In this document: positions 673 through 63,328 of the stretch, one piece after another
Numbering within the stretch: the stretch's first letter is position 1
Layout: every line of letters begins with the position of its first letter
Source: Fragilariopsis cylindrus CCMP1102
Lineage: Eukaryota; Bacillariophyta; Bacillariophyceae; Bacillariales; Bacillariaceae
NCBI GenBank assembly: GCA_900095095.1
Contig: FMBT01000302.1
Coordinates: 124,001 to 188,000 of the forward strand
Length of the DNA stretch: 64,000 nucleotides
Direction of reading: 5' to 3'
Notes under the pieces: generated by a model
Told to the model about the DNA's origin: nothing
The model's database searches: none
Seen by the model: the letters and a program-made list of their open reading frames with translations, nothing else
Made by a program: the position numbers and the translations under genes

Positions 673-3489
673 ATGGCAGAAGATGAGATCATGGACGATG
701 TGGTCGGAATGGAAGTGGAAGTCGACGAAGAAATGAACAAAAATGACGTTGTTGACATTGATAGGCTTTTAGTTCTACTTAAGGCCAGCATAAAAGCTGG
801 CGATTTGATAGCTACAAAACACGTTATGTTATTTATTGGATTGACAGGAGCAGGGAAGGTAAGTCGTCGGGCCAAATTTACATTATTGCGGAACCCATAC
901 ATGCGAAAATAAAGGTGCATCGTATAAATATAGACAAATGGATAGATACTACTCACCGTCGCATCATGATTCCTCTTCACGGTTATTAATAGACGACTAG
1001 TACTTTATATCTCGCTGGAGCAAAATTCAAAGAGGAAGACGTTGATGGGTATGCTCATTTTAAGCCTATTGAAATACCCAATGAAGCTCTATCTGAGTTT
1101 GCTGTATCTGGTGGTGCGAACTCAGTGACAACGACCATTCAAGCTACAACGATCATATTGAAAGGAGAAGAAAATGGACAGCAGGAACGTATCACTATTT
1201 GTGACACACCTGGTTTCGGAGATTCCAAAGGAAATGAGCAGGAAATATCCAACGGCTTAGGAATTGTCCATGCCCTCAAAGGCGCTGCTTCTATCAAGCC
1301 TGTCATTGTCATGGATCATAGGAGTATGGATGGAGGTCGATGGCTTGCCCTTCGAAAGAACCTATCGACTGTTATTTCCATGATGGGACGTGAATCTATT
1401 GATTTTTCACCTTTCTCGTACGTATTTACACGTTGTGAGGGGAAAAGTAAGAACAGAATCTCGAAACAGCTACAAGGTTTTCAAAAATCTATGCGCCAGA
1501 ATCCGCACATGAAAGACAAGGCCATTTTAGATGCGTTATTGACAGACATGATCTGAAAGACACAACCAGGTGAAGCAATTTGTATCGATCCCGAAGAGCC
1601 TGATGATGCACCCGCTACATTAAAGCGATTGTGGAGTGGATCGCGACTGAACGATCCTGCAAACCGTTTCGTTAACTTCTGTTCAAAGGAATCGATGGCT
1701 GCATTATTTATGCAAGTCAGTATCTTAATCCGCGATGTTGAAAGCTCTCTCGGAGCATCTGACCTGGATTCCGCAGCAGACCACCTCCACAAAATGTTAG
1801 GATTAGCTAGTGCACTTTCTCTGCCCGAAGTGGACGAAGCTGTTGAGCATGGAACTACAAAGGCAAGGAAGTTTGTGATCGCATTATCATCTGATATCGA
1901 CAACTTGATTACTCATGTCGATTCCGAGTTTGACCAGAAGTTAAACGATATGTCATCGAAACTGCACCTCCTTTCTCGCACAGGCCCCATTCGTGAAATC
2001 TGTGGAATGGACTTCGATTGTTGTTCTTTCATTAACGGTATCACTGGCAGAATTTTTTCGATGATCAGACAACAGATCACTGATATCAACCCTACTATTT
2101 CAGGAAGCGAATTTGTCCTACAACAATTAATAATGAGATTTATTCTGGTTGTGAAATCTTTCGAGGAAATCTCAGACAATAACGCGATTGAGGCTGAGTA
2201 CTCATCGATGAAAAAGACCACAGAACATTTACTGAATCCTATTTTCGTTGTTCTCGGAGACGCCTTGAATCTCAACGATCCCAAGTCTACTACTTTAAAC
2301 GATTGCCTCCCAAAGCTCAATTTTGTTCTTGCAATGAACGCCTTCTTTCATTCGTCCGAGTTTTCTGCTCTCAACCCAAAGATTTCCCAGTGGAATCTTT
2401 TTGAAACTGAATTAAAGAATATCGTTGATAATATCAGCGATAAGAGCGAAAATTGCGTGACGCATCTCGTAGAACTGGATAAAGCTCTACATGAAGAGCT
2501 TCTGGGAGAAGAGGAGTGGTCTGACGCATCTTTCTTGAAGTTGGATGATATTGCGGAGAGCAAGGAGTTCAGGAATTTCCTCCAGGCTGTTTTGACCTCT
2601 GATTTTGTTGTTATGTCTATCCAAAACGGTTCTACTCCGGACTTGAAGTCTTTGATCCGTGACTTCGACGATGCCGTCAAAAAATTCGTACCTTCCCTCG
2701 TTTTCTTTCTCCAGGGTGAATCCCGGGCCGTCTTTGAAAATGAAAGAGGAGAGGTGAATGAACGGGCCAATAAAGCACTTACCATCATAAGTTCTGTCGA
2801 TTTAGTCCTTACCATAGCCACCACTCTTAGGGAGTTTGATTCTATTATTTTCCAAAAGGCCTTGGAAGAACTGAATGATGTAAAGAGCCGGTCGAATCAC
2901 TTTATAGAAGAGTCGAAAAAGGCTCCCATTCGCCATAAAATCCTTCGTGGAAAAACTCTCGAGCCTACTGAAGAAGAACTAGCCAAGGCAAGCATTAAGG
3001 GAAGTAAAAAATATCTATTTCGATGGTATGAACGGTGCAACGAGTTGAAGGTATACTGGAAGAAACATGGACATTGCAATGTTCCTCGGAAAAATCCAAA
3101 TCTAGGATTGGTAAGTAGAATAATTGTGTGTAGTTTATTATGTATTTGACTAAATCTATAAACTTTCTGACCTTCTCTGGGATGTTTACCAGTGGGTGAT
3201 GGACCAGCGTACGGCGAAGAAAAAGTATGAAGCTGGATTAAAGACGCCAATGACTGATTACAAGTTACAGCATTTGGCCGACATGGATTTTCAGTGGAAC
3301 CGCTATAGTGAAGTGTGGGATCAGCGATTTGAGGAGTTGAGAAAGTACAAGGATGACCATGGACACTGTCGTTTACCCCAGAAGGGGCAGCTAGGCATAT
3401 GGGCGAAGGAGCAGAGAAGAAGTACAGTTCGCGCCCGCAGCAGTAAAGAACGAATTGCTAAGCTGGAAGCAATTGGTTTTTTTGACTAG
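673..3489 (+). CDS. P-loop GTPase with C-terminal helicase-associated (HA) domains
   Basis: Three exons: 673-858, 993-3110 and 3193-3489. Intron 859-992 (GTAAGT...AATAG) splits the P-loop exactly: GLTGAGK is in exon 1 and TTSTLYLAG in exon 2. G3 is visible as DTPGFGDSKG, and a G4-like TRCEG follows about 75 residues later, resembling AIG1/septin-like or other TRAFAC GTPases. A long helical, Ser/Leu-rich middle (about residues 320-760) has no family I can name. The C-terminus holds two HA-type units: W..RCNEL..Y...HGHCNVP, and W..RFEEL.KY..DHGHCRLP followed by LGIWAKEQR. Intron 3111-3192 lies inside the first HA unit. An in-frame TGA at 1554-1556 interrupts exon 2, while the same frame stays open on both sides; CGA to TGA is the simplest explanation, so the gene may be a recent pseudogene or the base may be wrong. 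Start 673 was chosen for its context. GTP binding is supported by motifs; the biological role is unknown. Confidence 0.75.
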
Positions 3490-30364: not shown

Positions 30365-31231
30365 CAACAAGCAAGCTCCACAAGCAAGCTCAACAAATAA
30401 ACACACACACACACACACAAAGACGACGCATAACGGAAATCCAAGATCTAAGAAGAAGTATATACCCTTCATTTGAGACATGATGATGTGTCGTGGGTAT
30501 GCTCCTGTACAGTAGCTCCACCATGGGCGGTGTTCTACAGTAGGAGTAGACAACAATCATGAAGTTTTTCATTTTAATGATACCGGTATGTTGTGATAAT
30601 CGAATCACGAGTAAGGAGTTGTCTCATTTTTTCGCGCCGTTGTCGTCTCATTTCTTTTTTAGGAGTAACTTCTTCACACACACATTACTAGTAGGTCCTA
30701 CTTTATAAAAGCGTGCCTGCCAAATTCAAGTCACACGCCAATTTTGTGTTTTGTTGATACCTAATTACCGTAAAATTGGCAGGTTTAGTCTTATTGTTTG
30801 CGAAATTTCGATGGCATGGTAGGCGTGGCAGGCATAGTAGTTGTGAACGTATTGCATATCACTCCCACAGGAATTCAAAACAACAATAATTAGGAGTGAT
30901 ATGCTTTTTCCCTACTTCATGTATTAACTGCCTACCTCTATCGTCCTCTCCTACTAACGTTAGTATTCCGCATACATTACATGCTTCCTATCTCGACTGC
31001 CAAACTCTTTCTTTGTATAGTACCGTATTGTAGAGAGACAACAACAACTCCTTTACCCTTTACCATATTTGTTCTCTCCATTTGCCATTACTGTATTTGC
31101 GGTGTCGCCCACGTTGGATTTAACGGCACAGGTACCCAAAAATGAAAGGCAAGACAAGATAAGAATAAGATCCTCTAAAAAAAAACTTCGACACATCCAT
31201 AAAATAAAAAAATAGACTAGACTAAAATATC
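30365..31231. other. 5' flank of the SDR-like gene
   Basis: Non-coding as far as I can see. It contains a (CA)n microsatellite near 30400-30419 and the presumed promoter of the gene starting at 31232. Confidence 0.4.
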
Positions 31232-32164
31232 ATGAGACGACAACGACGAGAAGATCGTCAACGCGATTACAGTGAGGAGGAACAGGAGGAGAATGGAAAC
31301 AACAACAACAACAACAACAACAGCATCATCCAATGGCAATCACCACCTCCCAATCGAGTTGCTGCTTCCCCATACGCCAACAACAACAACAATAACGATC
31401 AGAATAATTCAATAGACGACGATGACGACGACGGTTCATGTTCAGTTCGTAGCTTTAATAGTTACGACAGCAGTAATAACAATAATAAAAACGGCAGAAT
31501 TAACGCAGAAGAAGAATATTTAGATGGTCTGGGGAATGTTGGACATTACCAATCATTTGTAATGGAATCACCTCCATCAGATAAGATATCATCATCGAAT
31601 AATGTCGGTGGTGATAATAATGCTATGGGTGGTGGAGGAGGAAACTTACATCATCGGCATAATCACGCAGTTGTACATACTACGCCTTCCTTTGATGAAC
31701 AACACGACAATGACAATGATTATGATTATGATTATGACGATGAATCTCCTCAGCATAGACAAATGAGACAACGTACATTTTTATCTTCTCTTCATGGTAC
31801 TAGTAAACATCATGCAATACAACAACTCCATAAAGATCATTCTCCACTACTGGGATCATCATTATCGAATTATACTAATAGACTTGCTGCTTGGACTATG
31901 CGATCATTAACATCATCATCCACCACAAGAATAGCGCGATGGTGTTTGGGAATAGGAATGTTATTCTATATACTACTATTATTCCGATCTACCTACTTTT
32001 TAACAGGAACTACATCATCATTATTAGAGGAACAAGACTCCTATTATCAATTTGGTCCTGATAATCATAATCGTTATATATCTTACAACAACAAGGCTGC
32101 TGCTCACACTCAACGTAATACAAGAGGGTATAATAATGTATATAATTATTATTATAACACATAC

Positions 32165-32196
<32 letters not shown>

Positions 32197-35100
32197 TAAT
32201 AGCCACCCATCCACATCAACAACATCCACACCCACAACAACGATACTACCACGATGGTATGAAGAACAAATAAGAATATCGGAAGATACTAGAATAAAAC
32301 AAGAAATACAAAAGTCTCAAAGAAGTAGTCGAACGAAACCACCATCAGCTCCAACCGCTTCATCATCATCCTATATGTCATCGTTCTTTTCATCACCAAC
32401 AGCAGCAACAGCAGAAGTAGTAGGACAAGAATGGCATCATATATCATCTCTTGATGAGAGACAACAACAAAAATCACCAACACTGTCAACTTCACGACTT
32501 CGTGAAGACGACGACGACGACGAGGATAAGAGAAATGATGAATTAGAATTAGCATCCATTGATGATTTATGTGGTTATTCGGCACAACATTCAGTATTGA
32601 CTACACCACAACAGTATCCATCGAAAGCTGCATTGAATTCTAATTCAAGAGTAGTCATTACTGGGATATTAAATCCAATTGGAATAGCATTAGCATTAAA
32701 ATTAAAACAACATTGTGGTGTACAACATATTGCTGGTGTAGATACGATGTTTCCCAATACCGTATTAAATCGACTATTGGTACAAGAACGGATTCAATTA
32801 TTAACCACTAATATACCAAAATTATATAAACAAATTTATTTACCATATTTTGGTCTGGATTCAAAATTAAAAACAAAAACAAAGAAGAAGAAACAACATA
32901 GTGGTGGAAATAGAAATAATAATAAGAAATCATTAGAAGATGAAATGTTATGGATGCAAGATTTTGAACCGACACATGTTGTTCATTTATCATCGTATTC
33001 GATGGATGTTATGTACAATGATGCATTGATTGATCCGAATTGGAAAAATACTCGTTCTCCTTACATAGTATCTGAAGAGGAGAAGAAGAAGAAGTTAGAT
33101 AATAATCAAAATCAAAATCAACAACAGAATCAACAACAGCCATATTTTTATCCCATACGGACTGGAATGGTATCAATGGAACAGATATTACAAACTGTGT
33201 CATCATTTCCAGTAAATGAACGACCACAACTCCTTTATGCTACGACAGCCAATAACGGTAATAGCGTTAACAATACCAGCAGCAGCACCACCGACACAGG
33301 AGATGATGACACATTGTTTCAAACGATGAAACAAATGGATGAAGTCTTAGCAGATACCTACCACACTCTAACTAATTACCAATTGCCATCAATTGGATTA
33401 CGATTACCGAATGCTATTTATGGTCCATGGGGATACGCTGGATCAATCATGCACGATATGATGGAACGAGCTGTGGAAGTAGAAAAAGAAGAAGAACAAC
33501 AACAACAACAATCGTCGTCGTCGTCATCTTCAAGATCGTCGTCGTCTACCACTAATTTAGATTTGCTTTATGTCGATGATGCTGTTGATGCGATCATTTC
33601 AGCTTTACAGCATCGACCTGATGCACCAACGATAGTTACTGTACCATCGGAAGCAACTGCTTCTACGGAATCGATTGCATCGGCCATCCAATCTGTTTTA
33701 AATAATGGCAGCAGCAAAAATACAAATAATGATCGTGCGATATTGGAAGAAGAAAATGCAATTGCAAATCCACCTCCGCCGATCAATGGTATTCGTCGAC
33801 GAAGGTTGAAAATGAAAAACGCTAAGAACTTCCGCCGTCTTAACAACAACAGCAACAGCAACAGCAATATCAATAGCAACAAAAAACTGTGATGGATCCT
33901 CAAACTCCATTGAAAGATGGATTACTGAAATCTATTGCATGGCATTTGGATCGTTTAGCACCATACGGACCAGCTCCCACTGAAACGGGTGATGAATTAT
34001 TAAAACGGCATAAAAAGAAAACTTGTGGTCCGTTCGATATTAATTGTCATAAAAGTAATGATTATTTACCATGTAATTCAGAATGTAACATCCACGAGAA
34101 ATGCCTACCAAGTATCTTTGATGATACTCGTGAATTGATGTACGATGTTTCGGAAGGTTGTGATATTGTTCTGTACACCCAATCGCTCGGATATAACGTC
34201 GAAGATATGGAATTACATGCAGAATATATGAACGACAAGGACTTAGATGATGATGAATTATTGGTATGTAATTTTGCTGTTGTTCCTCGTGAGTCGGATT
34301 TGGTTTCTCTTGTTGCCAACAAAGTCCCCAATGATCAGTTAGCTAAATTTGGTATAGAGCCACAACCGTCCGATCGAAGTAGTAAAGATATGCGAGAAAG
34401 GAAGCTCAATGGACTGAATGGGCGATTATTGTACCGAGGATGGATATTGATTTGGGTTAAGGATGGGATGCGTGAATTGACTGCACCCAATTCATCCCTA
34501 TTGAAACTATCACCATCAAAATTCTTCCATCCGACCGTAAAGTACGGACTTTACGTAGAAGATAATTTCAAGGTATCACCTAATCTAGATGACATCTTAT
34601 TCTTGGCAGATCAAATGAAACGACGGAAATTAAATGACCGTAGTTTGAAAAAGGAAGAATCCATCGAGACACCCCATGGAACGATCAAGAAGAAGGTTAA
34701 ATACCGTATTCCGCAAGAACCGGCACGTCAGGCTGCTATTCTATTTGCACCGTTACGTTATCCCACTACGGATGATCCTATTATTGAACAATACCGAGCA
34801 GGTCGTAGAAAATTAACGGTTTACGATGCCGCGAAGTTTATGCAGTATGAGGTTGGGTACGACAGTGATGAAAAGGCATCGCCTTCATTACGACGTCAAC
34901 GTGAATACTACGAACGTATACCATCCTATATTAATAAGAATGACGAGCTCCGATCAAATTCTGAACCGTGGTATCGATATTCGATGAGGCATTGGGTCCG
35001 TTCTCGATGGGTGCTACACGACTTTGCGTTAGAAGATTCTCGTTTATTACGTTGTGATTGGTATCAAGAGCACGTTCAATGGGGTAATGACCTGGATCAG

Positions 35101-35493
35101 TTATCCTTTGCTAACGTAATGGCAGTACGTGAACTGAAACGTCGTATCGCTCATCAAGAACCAGATGATCACGTTAAGACATTCATTGAGATAAACCCGG
35201 AATTGCATGACCTAACTGATTCGTATGAATGGCATCCTATGGAAACTGAAGCAAACAAATTACATCGTGAACCGATCAATTGGAAGTCTCAACAACCTGC
35301 ACCAGTCCAAGTGATGATCGATGCGAATGGTAAATTGCAAGCACAGACCGAGGATGCAATATCAGAAGAAGATACACCATTATATGTTCGTATTATGTCG
35401 GAACGAGTTATGGGTGCATCGAGAAGGATATGGGCTCGAATGAGAAAGAAATTAGCAGAAGCTAAGAAAAGTCAAAAACAAATAGAGAAATAA
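31232..35493 (+). CDS. Membrane-anchored extended-SDR/UDP-sugar epimerase-like protein with long C-terminal extension
   Basis: Two overlapping frames (31232-33892 and 33889-35493) meet at a run of six A near 33880, and the natural reading continues as ..QQQKTVMDPQTPLKDGLL, so this is one gene of about 1,420 codons with a one-base slip. Order: Asn/Asp/Gln-rich cytosolic region (1-225), membrane helix (WCLGIGMLFYILLLF), Asn/Ser linker, Rossmann motif VVITGILNPIG (a TGxxGxxG variant lacking the middle Gly), VVHLSS, then FQTMKQMDEVLADTYHTL. This last segment aligns with the YxxxK active site of UDP-glucuronate 4-epimerases but has Phe for Tyr. NAIYGPWG and LLYVDDAVDAI are typical of the family. 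The second half starts with KSIAWHLDRLAPYG, a Cys-rich patch (CGPFDINC, CNSECNIHEKC) and about 400 residues I do not recognise. Probably Golgi-located; activity is doubtful. Confidence 0.7.
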
Positions 35494-45857: not shown

Positions 45858-48800
45858 TTAGACGGCAAGGGCATCATCTTCGTAATGATCGATCGCAACA
45901 GATCCTCCGCTTTCGAAGGTCACGGCAGTTTGAGCGAGGGCGCAGCCATACAATTTCGAATTGGTACCAAAGGTGATGGCGGTTCCGGCCATAATGGAGC
46001 CAGCAACTTCACTGCGGGCCCCAAGGGTGGCAGCAGTTCCGAGAACCCAGACTACGTTCTCTGCTTTTGCACCGTTCACCAGGATGAATTTGGTGTCTGC
46101 TGCAGTAACCAGAGTGCTGCCAGCAATAAAGATAAACTCAGGGTTAGCTTCGCCGTTCCCATCGAGAGTCACCACAGTGCCATGAGCAAAGTTGATGGCG
46201 CTACCTGAACGGTAGATTCCTGGGGTAAAAGTCATACCTCCGATCTCAATATCCATGGCCGTTTCGCTAGTGCCATAGTTGCCTTCCATTGCAGAAGCAT
46301 GGGCATCCACGACGTAGTCAGCAAAAACAGGAGAGTCTAAAACAATGTCACCCCCGTTCACAAACTGATGAGACCCGTAATGGATGTGCCGGGATAGACG
46401 CCCACATCCCCATCTTGGATTGTGCTTGTAGTCCCATCAAAAGTGACAGTGGTTCGAGCATGGACAGCAAAGTCTCCACACATCTCGTGGGAGACTGACT
46501 CGAAACTGGGCGCAGAAGATGGGCTGGTACTGGGAGAAGTACTTGGACTAGTACTAGGCGAATCACTTGGAGATGTACTGGGCGAAGTGCTGGGACTGGT
46601 ACTAGGAGAAGCGCTAGGGACATCACTCGGGATTGAACTTGGTGCTGAACTTGGTGCGCCACTCGGATCAGTACTAGGAGAAGAGCTTGGTGCAGAACTG
46701 GGTGTACGACTTGGAATGGAACTTGGACCAGCACTTGGTGCAGAACTTGGCACAAAACTAGGGACCTCACTCGGGATTGAACTTGGTGCTGAACTTGGTG
46801 CGCCACTCGGATCAGTACTAGGAGAAGAGCTTGGTGCAGAACTGGGTGTACGACTTGGAATGGAACTTGGACCAGCACTTGGTGCAGAACTTGGCACAAA
46901 ACTAGGGACCTCACTCGGGATTGAACTTGGTGCTGAACTTGGTGCGCCACTCGGATCAGTACTAGGAGAAGAGCTTGGTGCAGAACTGGGTGTACGACTT
47001 GGAATGGAACTTGGACCAGCACTTGGTGCAGAACTTGGCACAAAACTAGGGACCTCACTCGGAATTGAACTTGGTACTGAACTTGGTGCGCCACTCGGAT
47101 CAGTACTAGGAGAAGAGCTTGGTGCAGAACTGGGTGTACGACTTGGAATGGAACTTGGACCAGCACTTGGTGCAGAACTTGGCACAAAACTAGGGACCTC
47201 ACTCGGGATTGAACTTGGTACTGAACTTGGTGCGCCACTCGGATCAGTACTAGGAGAAGAGCTTGGTGCAGAACTTGGGGTACGACTTGGAATGGAACTT
47301 GGACCAGCACTTGGTGCAGAACTTGGCACAAAACTAGGGACCTCACTCGGGATTGAACTTGGTGCGGTACTCGGATCAATACTAGGAGTAAAACTGGGTA
47401 CATCACTTGGTGAAAGACTTGGCTTGAGACTGGGAACAGAGCTGGGTGCAGGACTTGGCTTGAGACTGGGAACAGAGCTGGGTGCAGGACTAGGTAGTGA
47501 ACTTGGTGTTGAACTTGGGACAAAACTTGGTGCGCTAATCGGATCAGTACTAGGCACATCACTTGGGATTGAACTAGGATCAGAACTAGGTACATCACTT
47601 ATTGATTGACTCGCTTTAGCAGTAAACGGGATCTCAAGGCTGCAAGTGTTACCAGCCCCATCAGAGGCAATGACTCTGGCAAACCCCTCCATCAGTTCAA
47701 TGGCAGGCGTCACCGTGAATCCAACGGAAGGATCCCCAGGAGCGAACGGTTCTACTTGAAGCTCAGTATTGAACGAATCAGTGGCAAGGTATATTGAGAA
47801 TATACCAGTGTTGGCGTCTCCATTCGCGTCGACTTCAGAAACATTCTCTTCCGTAGCGCTTCCTGTCACCAACACGGGGTTATCTCCACTGGTAAGGATT
47901 GAGCACAAGGGTGGGAATGGATCTCCAGCAGGATTGATGGCCTCGAATTCAGTGCCTCCGGGATAAATGTAGGAGTCAGCATTTCCGAATCCAATAACAG
48001 TAATGCCATGCCCATTGATCAGCGACTCTGTAGTATGAGTCCCTTGTGAAAGGGAAATCACTGCCGAGGAAAATCCACTGGAACCAATCTGCGTGAAAGT
48101 AGCACTCGGCACTGGTTGTCCGTCAAATTCCAAGTCCCCCACGTCGGCGTTGCTCGCAATGATAGAGAGATAATTGGTATCAAACTGGTCTCCACCAGCA
48201 GTTGCGAACGTATATTTCTTGAGGTATTGCTCAGAAGGACTCATGTTCCCCATGGCCGGATCTCCACCCACAGCGCCCTGTGCGGTGGTACCCGTCATGA
48301 ATTGGGCAACAAAAAAGGGCTTGTCGCTTTCAAATATGTAGCTTCCATCCAGCATTTGAGTATCAAAGAACATCCCTTTGTTCAAGGTCGCAATCATAAC
48401 ACCATCCTGAGTTATAGTACTACTATCCTCTGACGCCACGATTCGATAGATACTCCCCGAAGGGCGTTGGGGAAGGTTTGCGACGGGAACAGTTTTCCCC
48501 CAGGACTGAATTGGTTGAGCAACTTCGAACAAATGGTCGCAAGCATACACACCATTGGGCACGTTGGTGCAAACCGCGCCATTAGAGACGGTGACTGGGC
48601 GAGATGATGAGATTGTTGACCCCGTCAAAGAAGAGCTGTCCTCAGCACTTGTAAAGTAGGACTGGCCACGTTGCAGCACCACATCAAAGGGAACAGAAGC
48701 AACATGGCCAATGATGTTTTCAGTTGGAGTGATCGTCACAAGCGTATCATCGAATACCGCTGTAACGACAAATTCGGATGGAAGTGCTGAACTGAGTCCG

Positions 48801-49327
48801 TAGTAGTCAACGACCATGTACTTAGTGTTAAGTGCATCAATTGGCAGGGCAAGTGCTGCATCCGAGGTAGCTGCACGACGATTAATCATGTAAACAATGA
48901 AGTCGTCGGTTGCACTAACTCTGACTGAGTTGTTGAAGATTGTGTTGGTGTTATCAGACCAAGCTTGTGCAGCTGCAACCGGCAAAGAGAGCACAGTGAT
49001 TTGGCCAGAAGACACAGTGACCGAGGAATCAAAGATCGTTCCGACAGGGTACTCCACAGCTACACTTGTAGTTGCTGCGACTGCAGAAGTGAGATGGAGT
49101 TCAACATTTCCGTTTCCATCGTAGTTTGGTAGAAAACTGATGATGAAGTCCTTGCCAATATTGTCAAGATTTTGAGCCGCAACTCTTGTAGTGACACATG
49201 AAAGGATTGCTCCTATGAGAAGAAGCAAACGGAGCATGACTGTTGTTGCGGAAGATGAACGGTTCGCAGAAGCGTACAAGACGAACAGTGTGAGAAAAAG
49301 TATCACAAGGCACAATAAGAGAGGCAT
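45858..49327 (-). CDS. Modular ice-binding protein: IgGFc-binding-like domain, Pro-Ser stalk, DUF3494 ice-binding domain
   Basis: About 1,155 codons with no introns. Met1 (49327) or Met31 (49235-49237); Met31 gives a textbook signal peptide ending VAA-QNL. Residues about 55-465 match the IgGFc-binding family (PF17517): DFIISFLPNY, SEFVVTAVFDDTLVTITP, LTGSTISSSRPVTV, ACDHLFE, SWGKTVPVANLPQR. Residues 466-572 form an Ig/HYR-like sandwich (FTVTPAIELMEGFARVIASD). A ~368-residue xxPS stalk follows, with five 48-residue units. From about 940 comes a DUF3494 domain (PF11999): FAVHARTTVTFDG, GDVGVYPGTSITG, then IGGMTFTPGIYRSG, FIFIAGSTLV, VVWVLGTAATLG, GSIMAGTAITFG, GCALAQTAVTF. This is the beta-helical ice-binding fold known from sea-ice diatoms, fungi and bacteria. 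A one-base slip at a GGG run near 46380 splits the domain over two frames that overlap by four bases. GC-richer codons than its neighbours fit the transferred origin accepted for this family. Likely secreted; adhesion to ice is inference. Confidence 0.9.
46620..47343. repeat. Five tandem 144-bp units in the Pro-Ser stalk
   Basis: The phrase GGGACCTCACTCGG recurs at 46761, 46905, 47049, 47193 and 47337, exactly 144 bp apart. Units differ by only a few bases. Each unit encodes twelve xxPS quartets (EVPS FVPS SAPS AGPS SIPS and so on). Near identity at the DNA level means recent expansion or ongoing homogenisation, and the copy number in the assembly may be collapsed. Confidence 0.95.
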
Positions 49328-51701: not shown

Positions 51702-53867
51702 TTATTGTTGTTTTGTTACACGTTCTTTTGCTTTATTAGCTTCATTCTTCCAATTGGTTGTACCAATAACAACAAATAAAAGTAGTAACATATGCACCCA
51801 TGTTCCAGCTGTCATTCCAGCAACTAATCCAACATCACCACATAAAATCATTGTACCATCATTGTCATTATCGTTATCATCATCCTTATCTGTATCACCG
51901 GTGTCACTAGAATTATTATTTTTACATACTAAATCATTACCATTATTTCTATAGATACCTAAATAATATGCTAACGGGACACCAACAATCCAATATGCAA
52001 AAACAACAATTGGTACAACAATTTTTTGTCGTCCACAACCTTTGATTATACCATTACATCCTGTTTGTATACCATCAGCTAATACATATATACTCAAATA
52101 TGGTATGGTCGATGCTGTTTGATTAATAATAGCTTGATTGTCTTTTGATGATACAAATAATGATGGTAATAATGTATGTGGTAATAAAAATAAAAGTAAT
52201 CCAATACAAGTAGATGCTATACCACAACAAGTAACATTAATTTGACCAGCTAATTTTGCTTCTCTATAATAACCACCACCTAGTAGATTAGATACACGTG
52301 CACATCCAGCTGTTGCAAAACCAGCAGGGATCATAAAACTATATATTATTATTATTATTGTTTGAATATATTCAAGGTGGACGTAAACGTAAACGTAAAT
52401 ACATTGAAAGAGAGAGGGAAAAAAGTGTGAGAGAGAGAGAGATCATTTACGAACGAACGATTCGAAACCGAGAAACATACACGTCGAAAGACTAGACTAC
52501 TGTAAACGAATCAATTACAAATCGATTCGATTCGATTCGATTCTAGATTCGATTCGATTCACATCACATAATATAATATAATATACTATAATTGTACACA
52601 CGAAAGTACACAGATACGTCACGTACCAGAAGGAATTAATAGATTGATAGATTGTCATGGCTGCCAATGTTGTTTGTGGATATGGTTGGATTGTACCCGA
52701 TAAAAATATTGCAGTTTCTGATGCCCACCATTCACTGATCACAATAATACCAGGTATAGCTAAATTTAAATATTCTTTATATCCTGATATGGAACAAGAA
52801 GCAATGTATAATTCACGTTGAAAACAATTGGATATAGTGGTATGACCAATATGTTGTCCACCAGTTGCAATTAAAACTTTTTGTTTTCCTTGTTGTGATA
52901 TAAATAAATAGATACTGATATAACATAATTGTATTGCTTGAAAACATATTGTGGCATAGGCACAACCTAAATAACCAAATCCTAATAAATAGACAAATAA
53001 ATAATTAAATGGTATATGACAAATCAATCCAAGTAATGATGCTTGTGCTGGTATAGATGCTAATCCAATCGATTGGGTCCAGGCTGTTACTGTCCATTGT
53101 ATTGCATATAGCCATAAGGAGGGTGCTAATATTTGTAAATAGTTCGAAGATGCTACAGCCAAAACAGATGTTTGTCCTAATGCAATTAAAAAGTTTTCGA
53201 TACCATAGATCCACCAGATACCGACCGGTAATACTAATAGTATTTGTACTATTAATCCACGTAATAAAAATATGATTGGTGTATTCAAACCAATAGCTTG
53301 TATTGGTGCTGTATCATTACTATTATTCTGTTTCTTTGGTCTGGAAAACATTTCACCTTTTGCTTGTCCTGCTAATGTGGATAAGGCAAATGAAAAACCA
53401 ATACATAAACTCATTCCAGTGACATTACATAATGTGGTGGCTAATGCAGCAGCTGCTAATTCCACACCTTGACCACTACCATTTGCATCACTTGCATTAT
53501 TACTGTTATCAGCATTATTATCATTATCATCCATTTCACCTAATATACGTAATGTAATAAACCATGGAAATTTACCTAGTATTAATGATTGTAATGTCGG
53601 TAAAAAAGTTTTGGATTGTTCCATTACTTCCTGATATATTAAAGATACTAACGATGATGATGTGTTCGCTTTATTATTATTATTATTATTATAATCGCCA
53701 CCGCCACCACTACTGCCGTTGTCATCGTTAACGGTTGTCGGTAAGAGAAAAGATGTTTCATTATATATATTATTGTCATCATCTTGATCATAAAGAATCG
53801 TTGAACACGTTGTCGGTAAAAGAACCATCTCGTCTTCTTCTACTAATAGTTCATCACGAGGTGACAT
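51702..53867 (-). CDS. MATE-family multidrug/metabolite efflux transporter
   Basis: Two exons, 53867-52627 and 52338-51702 (intron 52339-52626, GTACGT...ATATAG), 1878 nt, 625 residues. A cytosolic Asp/Asn-rich N-terminus of about 100 residues is followed by twelve probable membrane helices. MATE (PF01554) landmarks: GMSLCIGFSFALSTLAGQAKGE in TM2, QSIGLASIPAQASLLGLICH, LNLAIPGIIVISEWWASE (TM7), and the exon junction NSFCFMIPAGFATAGCARVSNLLG, the conserved second-half A.S.RVSN-LG motif. IKGCGRQKIVVPIVVFAYWIVGVPLAYYLG is the usual TM10-11 segment. An Asp-rich insert before the last helix is typical of this genome. Such proteins exchange H+ or Na+ for organic cations; location may be plasma membrane or vacuole. 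Intact. Confidence 0.9.
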
Positions 53868-54511
53868 ACTAGTAATGAATGCAATGTAATGTAATGTATG
53901 TTGATTAACTATTTATTTCAATTCTATCCCTTCTTCTTCTTCTTCTTCGAATGTGTGCGCAACTATATGATTTTCTGTGTACTGTTAAACGATATTTCCT
54001 CCCGTCCCTTTCCTTCTCTCTATTAGAATCCAATCAATCCATCAATCAATCAATTCTATTGTTTCTTTTGTTTATTTGGTTGTGCCTATGATGTATTATA
54101 TCGTCACTCTCACTGCCTCTCTTCCTCTCTCTCTCTCTCAGGTTTATGATGAGACCTCCTGTACCGGTACAAAACAATGTAAAAAAAAATCTTTCGCATT
54201 CTTGGTCAGCGAGCGCTAACTAGCTCTCAACACAAAGAAAAACAACAATCAATCGGTTGCTGGGGTGAGTGGTTAGTGACGACGACGAGATTGGTTCAGT
54301 CACTATGCGCGATTAAGGGGCTGCGATTTTTTAATTTCTCGTAACAACAAAATTTTATCCACGTATGAACGGAAGATGGTCCTGTGTATCCAATCTAATT
54401 TGATGACGACACATAAATAAATAAATAAATTAATAATGCGAACGACCATCACTACTGTACTACCTACTTGTACTAGACAGTACTACTACTACTACTACTA
54501 CTACAACTACA
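53868..54511. promoter_or_regulatory. Divergent spacer
   Basis: Between the divergent MATE and SET genes, with (TTC)n at 53933-53947, (TC)n near 54121-54140 and (ACT)n directly before the SET start codon (54481-54505). No gene. Confidence 0.4.
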
Positions 54512-60086: not shown

Positions 60087-63080
60087 TCATCTCAATTTCC
60101 AAATAATTCCAAGCTCTTCAAGTCGACGTATACGTTCAACATCTACTAGTTTTCCTGTTTTCATTTGAATACGCTGTGTATTGAACCAACGTCCAAGACT
60201 TTCTCCATCTTCTTCATGTCCTCGTGGAACATTACAATTACCTTCCCTTGCTTTGTACTCAACAAGAAGTGTATACATATCATCCCACTGTTGGGAAAAT
60301 ACATCCCAAACAACACCAGTCTTCTCTAATCTACGTATACATTCAGCATCTACAAGTGTTCCTTTTTTCTTATTAGCACGCTGTTTCCTCAACCAATTTC
60401 CAAGATTTTCTCCATCTTCTTCATGTCCTTTTGGAACATTACAATTACCTTCCCTTTCTTTGTATTTAACAAGAAGTGTATACATATCATCCCACTGTTT
60501 GGATAATACATCCCAAACAACACCAATCTTCTCTAATCGATGTATACATTCAGCATCTAGTGTTCCATTTTTCTTTTTAATACGCTGTCTATTCAACCAT
60601 AATCCAAGATTTCCTCCATCTCCTTTATGTCTATGCGGAACATTACAATTACCTTCCCTTTCTTTGTATTTGACAAGAACTGTATACATATCATCCCACT
60701 GTTTGGATAATACATTCCATACAACACCAATCTTCTCCAGTCGATTGATACGTTCAACATATAGCGTTCCTTTCTTCTTACTAATACGCTGTGTATCCAA
60801 CCATACTCCAAGACGATTTTTTCCATATTCTTTATGTCCATGGGGAACATTACAATTACCTTCACGATCATTGTACACCAAAAGTAATTTGTACATCTTG
60901 TCCCAGTTATTTTGACTCCTGCACACATTTATTGCACGATTCATCATATTACTTTTCATTTCTATTGACCAACCTGATGGAAGAACAAATGCTTCTAAGA
61001 TACGTTCAGGAAACTCATCTCCCTTCAAACCTCTTTTTAATCTAGACATTTTTTGGATCACAGATAAAACATCTTGACGCAACTCGGGATCTTCACTAAC
61101 AATTGCTTGGAATGAATAAAAGAAATTTTTGTAATTGTCATTCGTAGTTGTTTCGTCGTCTTCACCGTCATTGCCATCATTGTCAAAGCCACCATCAGTT
61201 ACTGGCATGGGAATAAGAACATACCCACATTCTTTACCAGGTGCCTTTCGGCTAACTCTTCCAATCATTTGTCTTGACGAGACATAACTCTCTACAGGAT
61301 CAGCCATAACAACTAAATTCCAATGTGGTTCATCAACGCCCACTGATAATATCTTACAATTTGATAGGAGAGACTTGTCAGAATTTCTTGCATCATTTAA
61401 TATTTGTTCTCTACAAGAAGCACTCATTTTACCATTCACATTAAATACAGAAACAAAGTTATTTCTAAAGATATCGTTATTGCTGCTGCTGCTGCTGCTG
61501 CTGCTGCCGCCAAAGACATCTCTGTATGTATCTGCAAATGTACTCGCACGGTTGTTATTCGAATGGAATGATACAGCGTGACTTATGTTATACTTATGGA
61601 ATGCTGCTTGTACAGCAAAAGGAACCAATGGATCATATTTTGTATTCATTGTTGTTGTTATTGGGTTATCCAATACGGTACGTTGTTGTTGAATTTGTCT
61701 TTGGGTGGCGTCAATTACTACGTTAGATTCTTGTAGTATATATTCAATCTCATCTTTATCCATAACGATCAGTTTGATGGGCACTGTAACGTTTTGTTCA
61801 ACGCTTTGTTTTTGTGTCCTTCGTACGATACACGGTCCAAATAAATGCTTGTTAAAGAATCTACGGACAGGTTCTTGTTGTTGTGATAATGACAATGTTG
61901 ATGTTGGTATAATTGTTCGTCCATCATCTAAATTTTGTTTAGATGCAAATACACCAACACATCTTGGATTATCATTATAATCTCGTGGTGTTGCTGTTAA
62001 AAAGAACCTATACGAAATTGGTATATTAGTATCATCTAATCCATATCCAGTTTGTTTACTAGTCCCTTCCATCGTATGTGCCTCATCAAAAATACCAAAT
62101 TCAATTGTCATCTTATTATTGTTACCATTATTACTATTGTTGTCGATACTGTCGTTGATTTTCGATATCGCTTCTCCGACATGTTTCAATGATGCGTACG
62201 TACAAACTAATATCTTAATATTGCTCTCAGGTGATGATATCGATTTTGATAGTAAAAAGTCACTAATTGTATCTGATGATGTTGTATAAAATTCTGTACG
62301 ATTTGATTTACTTGCAACAATCAATCTATCATCAAGTGAAATGTTATTTGACAGTAATGGATAATTATCAAAATCTTTTAAAAATTGATCAACTAGAATC
62401 AAGGTTGGTGTAACAAACATTACAATACGTGTTGTTGCTATTGTTGATGATGATGCCCAATGCAATTGCTGCTGTTGGGGTGGTTTCATTTGTAACATTC
62501 GTGTTAATACCATTAAGGAAAGTTGTGTTTTACCCCATCCTGGTGGAAGTTGAACATTCCCTCGACGATGAATTTCTTCCTCGTCGTCAATATTATTACT
62601 ATTATTGTTTTTATTCTTATTAGAACGTGATATTGAAAAATGATCAATAATACGATCAACAATCTCATCATGACGACCATCATCGTTTATTGATGATGAT
62701 GAAATCTCTTCCTCTTCTTCTTCTGTATAGATTTCCTCTTCGTCGACACAGCTGTTACCGTCCTCATCGTACTGTTCGTTAACTACTACGCTGTTACGAA
62801 AGATCCTCCGTGGCGGTGAGGACGATAATAAAGACGTTGCTAGCATTATCTCTTTATTATTGATTATTTCTGTGTTAATATTTCTGTTATAAGATGTTAC
62901 ATTAGTAATCGTTGTAGGCTCTGACAATAATACAGATGATGACTTCCATAAAGTGTTGGACATTATCATCAGTCTTCGTCGTCGTCCTGATCTTTCAGAT
63001 AAAAAATAATGAAGTCGTTGCATTCGAAATAAATTTCCCATTGTCTTGGACACTACGTGTGACGGCATCACCACCACCAC
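60087..63080 (-). CDS. SF2 helicase with four C-terminal HA domains
   Basis: Single exon, 997 residues. The N-terminus is basic and Ser-rich and could be an organelle presequence. Helicase motifs in order: Walker A PPGWGKTQLSLM (~180), motif Ia FVTPTLILVDQF, DEAH box in FGIFDEAHTMEG (~331), motif III FFLTATPRDY, motif V region SVGVDEPHWNLVVMADP, and motif VI RQMIGRVSRKAP. This resembles the SF2 helicases of restriction-enzyme/plasmid type. From ~718 to the end come four HA (PF03457) units of about 69 residues, each W..MY.LLV.Y..REGNCNVP.GH...G..LG.WL..QR..KK.GTL....I.RLE..GVVW. The units are about 75 percent alike, so they arose by recent tandem duplication. HA domains are thought to bind nucleic acid. 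The gene is intact, and its partner genes are unknown. Confidence 0.85.
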   Translation of the reverse strand: MVVVMPSHVVSKTMGNLFRMQRLHYFLSERSGRRRRLMIMSNTLWKSSSVLLSEPTTITNVTSYNRNINTEIINNKEIMLATSLLSSSPPRRIFRNSVVVNEQYDEDGNSCVDEEEIYTEEEEEEISSSSINDDGRHDEIVDRIIDHFSISRSNKNKNNNSNNIDDEEEIHRRGNVQLPPGWGKTQLSLMVLTRMLQMKPPQQQQLHWASSSTIATTRIVMFVTPTLILVDQFLKDFDNYPLLSNNISLDDRLIVASKSNRTEFYTTSSDTISDFLLSKSISSPESNIKILVCTYASLKHVGEAISKINDSIDNNSNNGNNNKMTIEFGIFDEAHTMEGTSKQTGYGLDDTNIPISYRFFLTATPRDYNDNPRCVGVFASKQNLDDGRTIIPTSTLSLSQQQEPVRRFFNKHLFGPCIVRRTQKQSVEQNVTVPIKLIVMDKDEIEYILQESNVVIDATQRQIQQQRTVLDNPITTTMNTKYDPLVPFAVQAAFHKYNISHAVSFHSNNNRASTFADTYRDVFGGSSSSSSSSNNDIFRNNFVSVFNVNGKMSASCREQILNDARNSDKSLLSNCKILSVGVDEPHWNLVVMADPVESYVSSRQMIGRVSRKAPGKECGYVLIPMPVTDGGFDNDGNDGEDDETTTNDNYKNFFYSFQAIVSEDPELRQDVLSVIQKMSRLKRGLKGDEFPERILEAFVLPSGWSIEMKSNMMNRAINVCRSQNNWDKMYKLLLVYNDREGNCNVPHGHKEYGKNRLGVWLDTQRISKKKGTLYVERINRLEKIGVVWNVLSKQWDDMYTVLVKYKEREGNCNVPHRHKGDGGNLGLWLNRQRIKKKNGTLDAECIHRLEKIGVVWDVLSKQWDDMYTLLVKYKEREGNCNVPKGHEEDGENLGNWLRKQRANKKKGTLVDAECIRRLEKTGVVWDVFSQQWDDMYTLLVEYKAREGNCNVPRGHEEDGESLGRWFNTQRIQMKTGKLVDVERIRRLEELGIIWKLR

Positions 63081-63328
63081 ACTGCAGCGTAAGACATGTA
63101 GTCGTTCCTGTTGTTACTGACAGATGATGATGATTGTGGAATACAAATGCATCAACTTTTGGAATAAAAATAAAAGATAATATACAGTATCGGAAGCATC
63201 AAAATGAGGTAACAATAATAATAATGATGTAATGGAGCGCCCCCAAAACTCAAATACACAAATCACAATTTGTGTGTTACTGCCCAAAACTCTTTCATGT
63301 AAAACCTAAATCATGCCAATATAAAAAC
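63081..63328. other. 5' flank of the helicase
   Basis: Contains ACACAAATCACAATTTGTGTGT, an imperfect palindrome near 63255-63276. No gene is seen. Confidence 0.4.

Follow-up and report, generated by a model that had tools for sequence, protein, structure and literature searches.

How do the diatoms that live in sea ice hold on to it? We know of no explanation of this attachment at the protein level, and the question is raised anew by a locus of Fragilariopsis cylindrus CCMP1102, on the minus strand at positions 45858-49327 of the window, by which we mean the whole stretch of 64,000 nucleotides analysed here (contig FMBT01000302.1 of assembly GCA_900095095.1, positions 124,001 to 188,000). An earlier note, made from the letters alone, had read this locus as one protein with an IgGFc-binding-like head, a long Pro-Ser stalk and, at its end, an ice-binding domain of the DUF3494 family, and had compared it with bacterial ice adhesins. 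Judged from the DNA and its translations, the order of head, Pro/Ser stalk and ice-binding domain in one minus-strand gene is real, with a break in the reading frame of the last domain. That the product sticks diatoms to ice is a reading to which we give an even chance.

The two family assignments, for which the note had proposed profile searches, both came out clearly. The IgGFc_binding family (PF17517) is matched by the upstream frame (49345 to 46361, minus strand; 995 residues, or 989 counted from the first Met at 49327) with an hmmscan E-value of 6.9e-64 and a score of 216.4 bits against a curated cut-off of 25.6, the match covering residues 156-435 of the frame and positions 1-287 of the 297 in the profile. 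The downstream frame (46436 to 45861, minus strand) carries PF11999, the DUF3494 family, with an E-value of 4.1e-34 and 118.5 bits against a cut-off of 28.7. Both E-values being decisive, these matches are not due to chance. The upstream frame also contains the PT repeat PF04886 (E-value 3.6e-15), and the stalk, put by the note at about 370 residues, measures 368. In NCBIfam no model matched the upstream frame at E ≤ 0.01, and the IBP_CFB model scored 62.8 on the downstream frame, far under its cut-off of 400.

The reading frame of the DUF3494 domain is not intact. Where the note had treated the locus as a single protein there are two frames, the upstream one ending at a TGA (Table 1), and the first issue is whether they belong to one gene. 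Our own DUF3494 profile of 206 positions was built from prokaryotic domains, those of the 80 best among 568 relatives. Its positions 5-46 match the end of the upstream frame (28.5 bits, i-Evalue 1.8e-10 with 3 sequences searched) and its positions 76-200 the downstream frame (129.0 bits); joined by an X, the pieces give a single match over positions 6-200 (158.5 bits). The domain opens in the frame of the stalk for some 44 residues, and the remainder follows as 167 codons (45861-46361) one frame over. At the level of the sequence the head-stalk-DUF3494 fusion is genuine, because neighbouring genes would not share one domain; the worry voiced in the note, that head and stalk might be one gene and DUF3494 another, is thereby answered at the DNA level. 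Two separate genes lying head to tail would account for the two frames and for the fact that in Pfam only the downstream piece reaches PF11999 alone, but they would not account for a domain start fused in frame to the stalk. Moreover, the downstream frame has its first Met (residue 50) within the domain, with no signal-like stretch after it by eye, and we regard this arrangement as extremely improbable.

Several observations concern the coding character of the two pieces. A run of 168 stop-free codons past the break was reached in 8 of 20,000 base shuffles of the same stretch, and the codon score, a weak aid, ranked the right frame first among the three forward frames of either piece and, in the downstream piece, above the reverse frames too. 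The stretch just past the break is very probably coding, since a helix of the structural model described below (residues 11-27) corresponds to the DUF3494 helix. As read from the two frames, the break amounts to about one missing base. Could a short intron explain it instead? When donors from 46510 to 46365 and lengths of 20 or more were tried, 13 GT...AG pairs of 23-143 nucleotides restored the frame, and several of them, for instance one of 92 nucleotides, have an ordinary length. However, every pair either deletes residues matched by the profile or fails to put the sequence preceding the break into the right frame: the 92-nucleotide pair would cut out the alpha helix just mentioned, and the least harmful pair, of 38 nucleotides, is very short and drops two glycines aligned to nearly invariant columns. 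An intron is thus very unlikely, and we reject it on present evidence, as family-matched residues would be lost.

No further stop or frame change is found within the ice-binding domain, and for this reason we think an error in sequencing or assembly, or a lesion of recent date, likelier than an old pseudogene. A break that is real and recent would leave a truncated gene, encoding a secreted IgGFc head and Pro/Ser stalk that would serve as a mucilage protein devoid of ice binding. An upstream frame that stays open for 989 codons and then stops inside the ice-binding domain is what such a truncation would look like, and the very long branch on which this domain lies would suit it as well; against this, the remaining 167 codons are open, their right frame is top in the codon score, and the family profile is matched without other interruption. 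We consider recent truncation a possibility of some weight, if a doubtful one.

What fold does the domain adopt? AlphaFold2 was applied to the unchanged downstream piece only, with 75 relatives (67 from genome loci and 8 from viral contigs), and gave a model with a mean predicted local distance difference test (pLDDT) of 85.4 and a predicted template modelling score of 0.80, consisting of the helix at residues 11-27 and solenoid strands. The predicted fold is the DUF3494 solenoid, for which the note had suggested a prediction of the C-terminus. At E ≤ 0.001 the model matched 31 chains of the PDB, all of them ice-binding or antifreeze proteins, representing the same 25 proteins as a sequence search of the PDB. 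The top match is AnpIBP of an Antarctic fungus (template modelling score 0.74 by query, 37-38% identity), followed by bacterial proteins, and the sea-ice alga protein 6a8k comes further down the list (31% identity). In AnpIBP, replacement of the B-face residues S153 or T156 lowers the activity to 17% (PMC7277481). We placed the equivalents of these residues through the S153Y difference between two AnpIBP chains and found them to be T and T here. The domain might nevertheless bind a ligand other than ice, the protein then being a general adhesin; since the closest solved structure, AnpIBP, is a tested ice binder, we find this distinctly unlikely.

The descent of the domain is less readily traced. 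In an 82-row DUF3494 tree it has no supported neighbour, and with so long a branch and an unsettled bootstrap we name no donor. Given the long branch to the prokaryotic relatives and the 31% identity to 6a8k, the domain may have been acquired independently of the well-known diatom ice-binding proteins (IBPs).

The head has relatives in bacteria. In a tblastn search with the 536 residues of the head, the best among the relatives read were two bacterial IgGFc proteins, L187, matched over residues 2-536 (5.8e-57), and L186, over residues 3-404, both from the phylum of genome G005, which we take to be Bacteroidota; in a multiple alignment they agree with the head at 34% and 31%, respectively. This alignment takes in the segment behind the IgGFc region which the note had called Ig-like. 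Pfam does not bear out this designation, since a search with the segment by itself yielded nothing at E up to 1; its support is the alignment at the same position in these two bacterial proteins only. Head and companion segment look like a bacterial unit, as far as this alignment goes. PF17517 is found in 56 of the 247 genomes of that phylum and in 112 of the 188 genomes of the phylum of G028 (taken as Myxococcota), where the window head as a query gave a match in 55 of 95 genomes (best 2.6e-43, 33%). A sequence search of the PDB with the head returned no solved relative at E ≤ 1, and neither the single-protein query nor a 3-row alignment found relatives of the head in viral contigs. The C-termini of L186 and L187, which have no Pfam match at E ≤ 0.01, resemble by eye an outer-membrane barrel.

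Between head and ice-binding domain the stalk takes the place that an extender has in ice adhesins. Its 368 residues comprise 145 Ser, 93 Pro and 20 Thr (45% Ser+Thr, 25% Pro). Tandem Repeats Finder reports a 144-base-pair (bp) tandem repeat in 5.2 copies with 98% matches, which corresponds to five units of 48 residues, units 2-5 each differing from the first by 0-1 residues. Because the units are near-identical as DNA, a recent expansion or homogenisation of the repeat is suggested, and the length of the stalk may therefore vary between alleles.

At the N-terminus, 19-residue hydropathy windows above 1.6 begin at residues 1-6 and 24-34. The second Met (49237) has a G at position -3 and is followed by what looks by eye like a signal peptide, and on these two grounds it is a likelier start than the first (49327), which has a T at -3 and would add a second hydrophobic stretch upstream. 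A protein started at the second Met would presumably be secreted; if the first Met were used, an N-terminal membrane anchor is possible. In the downstream piece the 19-residue windows peak at 1.57.

What would such a protein do? We propose, at even odds, a secreted modular ice-adhesion protein, with a signal peptide, an IgGFc head, a glycosylated stalk and a terminal DUF3494 domain that binds ice. By analogy, the head would sit in the cell coat or in the mucilage outside the cell; the stalk, presumably disordered and probably O-glycosylated, would bridge the distance; the solenoid at its tip would, to judge from the model, bind ice; and cells or their matrix might thereby be stuck to it. We favour an adhesive function because the same head domain alternates with disordered repeats in a frog glue, and the analogy makes the adhesin plausible. 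This protein, PRIT-Dg, combines a signal peptide with an alternation of IgGFc domains and disordered repeats, the repeats being predicted to carry O-glycosylation, and the authors of the study propose a contribution of the domains to strength or extensibility (PMC11237159). A role as ice adhesins has been suggested for those bacterial DUF3494 proteins that have extenders (PMC10796529, PMC9957290), and upstream Ig-like extenders and collagen-like parts of DUF3494 proteins have been read as ice tethers or biofilm anchors (PMC9957290, PMC10796529). Few of the bacterial IBPs with Ig domains carry a signal peptide and a transmembrane domain together (PMC9957290). The probabilities that we attach to the ice adhesin and to its rivals overlap and are not meant to sum to one.

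Several points weigh against an ice adhesin. The break, if real in the organism, deletes most of the ice-binding domain. This domain is very divergent, with an end branch of 2.67 changes per column in the 82-row tree, and the two threonines of its presumed ice face are the family consensus (S or T in 70 and 71 of the 75 relatives at the S153 and T156 equivalents, respectively), which makes them fit ice binding but not prove it. In the N-terminal piece and the stalk, some antisense frames outscore the right frame in the codon score. The model of the head, computed from a single sequence, is unusable (pLDDT 31). Hydropathy gives no evident membrane anchor behind the head or at the C-terminus, and membrane-tethered ice adhesins are minimally evidenced in the data of PMC9957290. 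The want of an evident anchor would suit a secreted, soluble multi-domain IBP that blocks recrystallisation or shapes brine pockets, both reported for algal type 1 IBPs (PMC6892780), with stalk and head retaining it in the mucilage and no adhesion to ice. A solute, however, would seem to have no need of a stalk of 368 residues or a head of about 520, as single secreted domains suffice elsewhere, and we hold this soluble protein to be unlikely.

Is the combination of IgGFc and DUF3494 found elsewhere? DUF3494 occurs in 27 of the 188 and 29 of the 247 genomes of the phyla of G028 and G005, respectively, and PF17517 occurs also in 6 of the 28 genomes bearing DUF3494 loci that we examined, its positions being those of the best matches listed for each genome, which allows no full positional comparison with DUF3494. 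Three sets of prokaryotic DUF3494 proteins were scanned with Pfam. The first holds 79 of 80 genome loci (L036, with a stop in frame, was left out) and shows 25 of 30 families, so that a single-member family may have escaped notice there. In the second set 20 regions supplied 24 frames (48 matches were listed), with all 7 families shown, and in the third 20 regions supplied 20 frames (50 matches were listed), with all 19 shown. For the second and third sets mostly the longest frames were chosen, and all three are samples rather than all prokaryotes; the genomes of L080 and L012 each appear in two sets with different proteins. Among the families shown for these 123 proteins (79 + 24 + 20) IgGFc_binding is not present, and our own head profile, which recovered 5 of 6 independent IgGFc loci as a control (L166 was missed), found no head in 160 frames of 80 genome and 80 viral loci, in 389 frames for the second set or in 118 for the third. 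Conversely, 393 frames of 25 IgGFc loci contained no DUF3494. The typical extender is Big_5, present in 46 of the 123 proteins (16, 17 and 13 by set). As the genomes searched were prokaryotic, absence of the architecture from databases cannot be claimed. We found no paper joining IgGFc and ice binding, most subscription papers lying outside the search. Algal IBPs are described as a DUF3494 domain with a signal peptide (PMC6892780), DUF3494 families in algae have been treated (PMC9756366), and a paper on limpet glue contains both 'IgGFc-binding' and 'diatom' (PMC7333891).

Two further observations were made on DUF3494 relatives. DUF3494 genes are common in putatively viral contigs (L081-L160): among 163 candidate stretches, 139 code for a relative of the DUF3494 query, a few of them in frames of more than 1,600 residues. 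In the phylum of G028 (L188-L207), 4 of the 24 DUF3494 proteins also have a VWD domain, of a kind tied to animal and diatom adhesives (PMC7335047).

Table 1. Features of the head-stalk-DUF3494 locus, in window positions
Feature	Position	Strand	Basis
Signal-peptide-like N-terminus, 21 residues from the second Met	49175..49237	-	Hydropathy; cleavage place by eye
Whole head module, IgGFc region and 'Ig-like' segment (about 47618-47923)	47618..49174	-	Alignment with L187 and L186; tblastn
IgGFc_binding domain (PF17517)	48023..48862	-	hmmscan
Pro/Ser-rich stalk, 368 residues	46502..47605	-	Composition; PF04886
Stalk units, five tandem, 144 bp (48 residues) each	46640..47359	-	Tandem Repeats Finder; unit comparison
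DUF3494 ice-binding domain across two frames	45909..46495	-	Own profile; PF11999
Frame break: TGA at 46358-46360, domain resumes one frame over at ~46362	46358..46366	-	
Stop codon of the downstream frame	45858..45860	-	

Elsewhere in the window we noted frames with an HSF DNA-binding match, a mitochondrial carrier match and a SET-like match just below cut-off; the window has no tRNA and no Rfam match. Such frames and the helicase named below suggest a eukaryote, and with the Pro/Ser repeats probably a diatom. At 31226-35490 (plus strand) lie two long frames of 888 and 538 codons that share 13 bases in different registers, possibly a second frame break or else two adjacent genes, which would bear on the assembly error rate. 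A MATE transporter gene at 51705-53912 (minus strand) lies over two frames 75 bases apart, probably split by an intron. At 60090-63113 (minus strand) a helicase with four HA repeats is encoded by an uninterrupted frame of 1,008 codons, and a second frame, at 1557-3146 (plus strand), has one weak HA match (22.5 bits against a Pfam cut-off of 28.4).

If the adhesin is true, the attachment of a diatom to ice would have a single candidate gene, whose protein unites a glue-type head and a spacer with an ice-binding domain. It would join the root-cap fusion of PMC10796529 as a further composite DUF3494 protein of eukaryotes and would illustrate the recombination of bacterial modules in a eukaryote. 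More tentatively, and with the odds somewhat against it, it would represent a route of ice attachment independent of both the bacterial ice adhesins and the secreted single-domain IBPs of diatoms.

How does this gene compare with known systems? The bacterial IgGFc proteins L186 and L187 share with it the head and the following segment, at 31-34%, and have another C-terminus where the window gene has its stalk and DUF3494. Bacterial DUF3494 proteins with Ig-like extenders (for example Shewanella frigidimarina IBP_1, 6bg8) resemble it in that many hold the ice-binding domain at the tip of an extender; their extenders are folded Ig-like domains, however, whereas the extender here is a Pro/Ser repeat. 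MpAFP of Marinomonas primoryensis is of the RTX type and is exported by type I secretion. It shares the functional idea, an extender keeping the ice-binding domain off the cell, but is a bacterial, non-DUF3494 ice-binding protein (PMC6892780), and we claim no homology. The algal single-domain DUF3494 IBPs (6a8k) have the same C-terminal fold and family; they are usually described as secreted proteins of one domain (PMC6892780), whereas the window domain sits behind a head and a stalk. Ancylonema AnIBP likewise joins a eukaryotic DUF3494 to an extra beta-rich module, but this module is a root-cap (DPH) domain for which its authors suggest oligomerisation, and the passages considered mention no comparable stalk (PMC10796529). 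Finally, PRIT-Dg offers a signal peptide, IgGFc domains, predicted O-glycosylated disordered repeats and an adhesive secretion; it is an animal protein with several IgGFc copies, its repeats are Pro/Gly-rich with Pro-Gly motifs, and no ice-binding domain is mentioned in the passages considered (PMC11237159), whereas the diatom gene places its one head and Pro/Ser stalk before a domain with the predicted fold of an ice binder.
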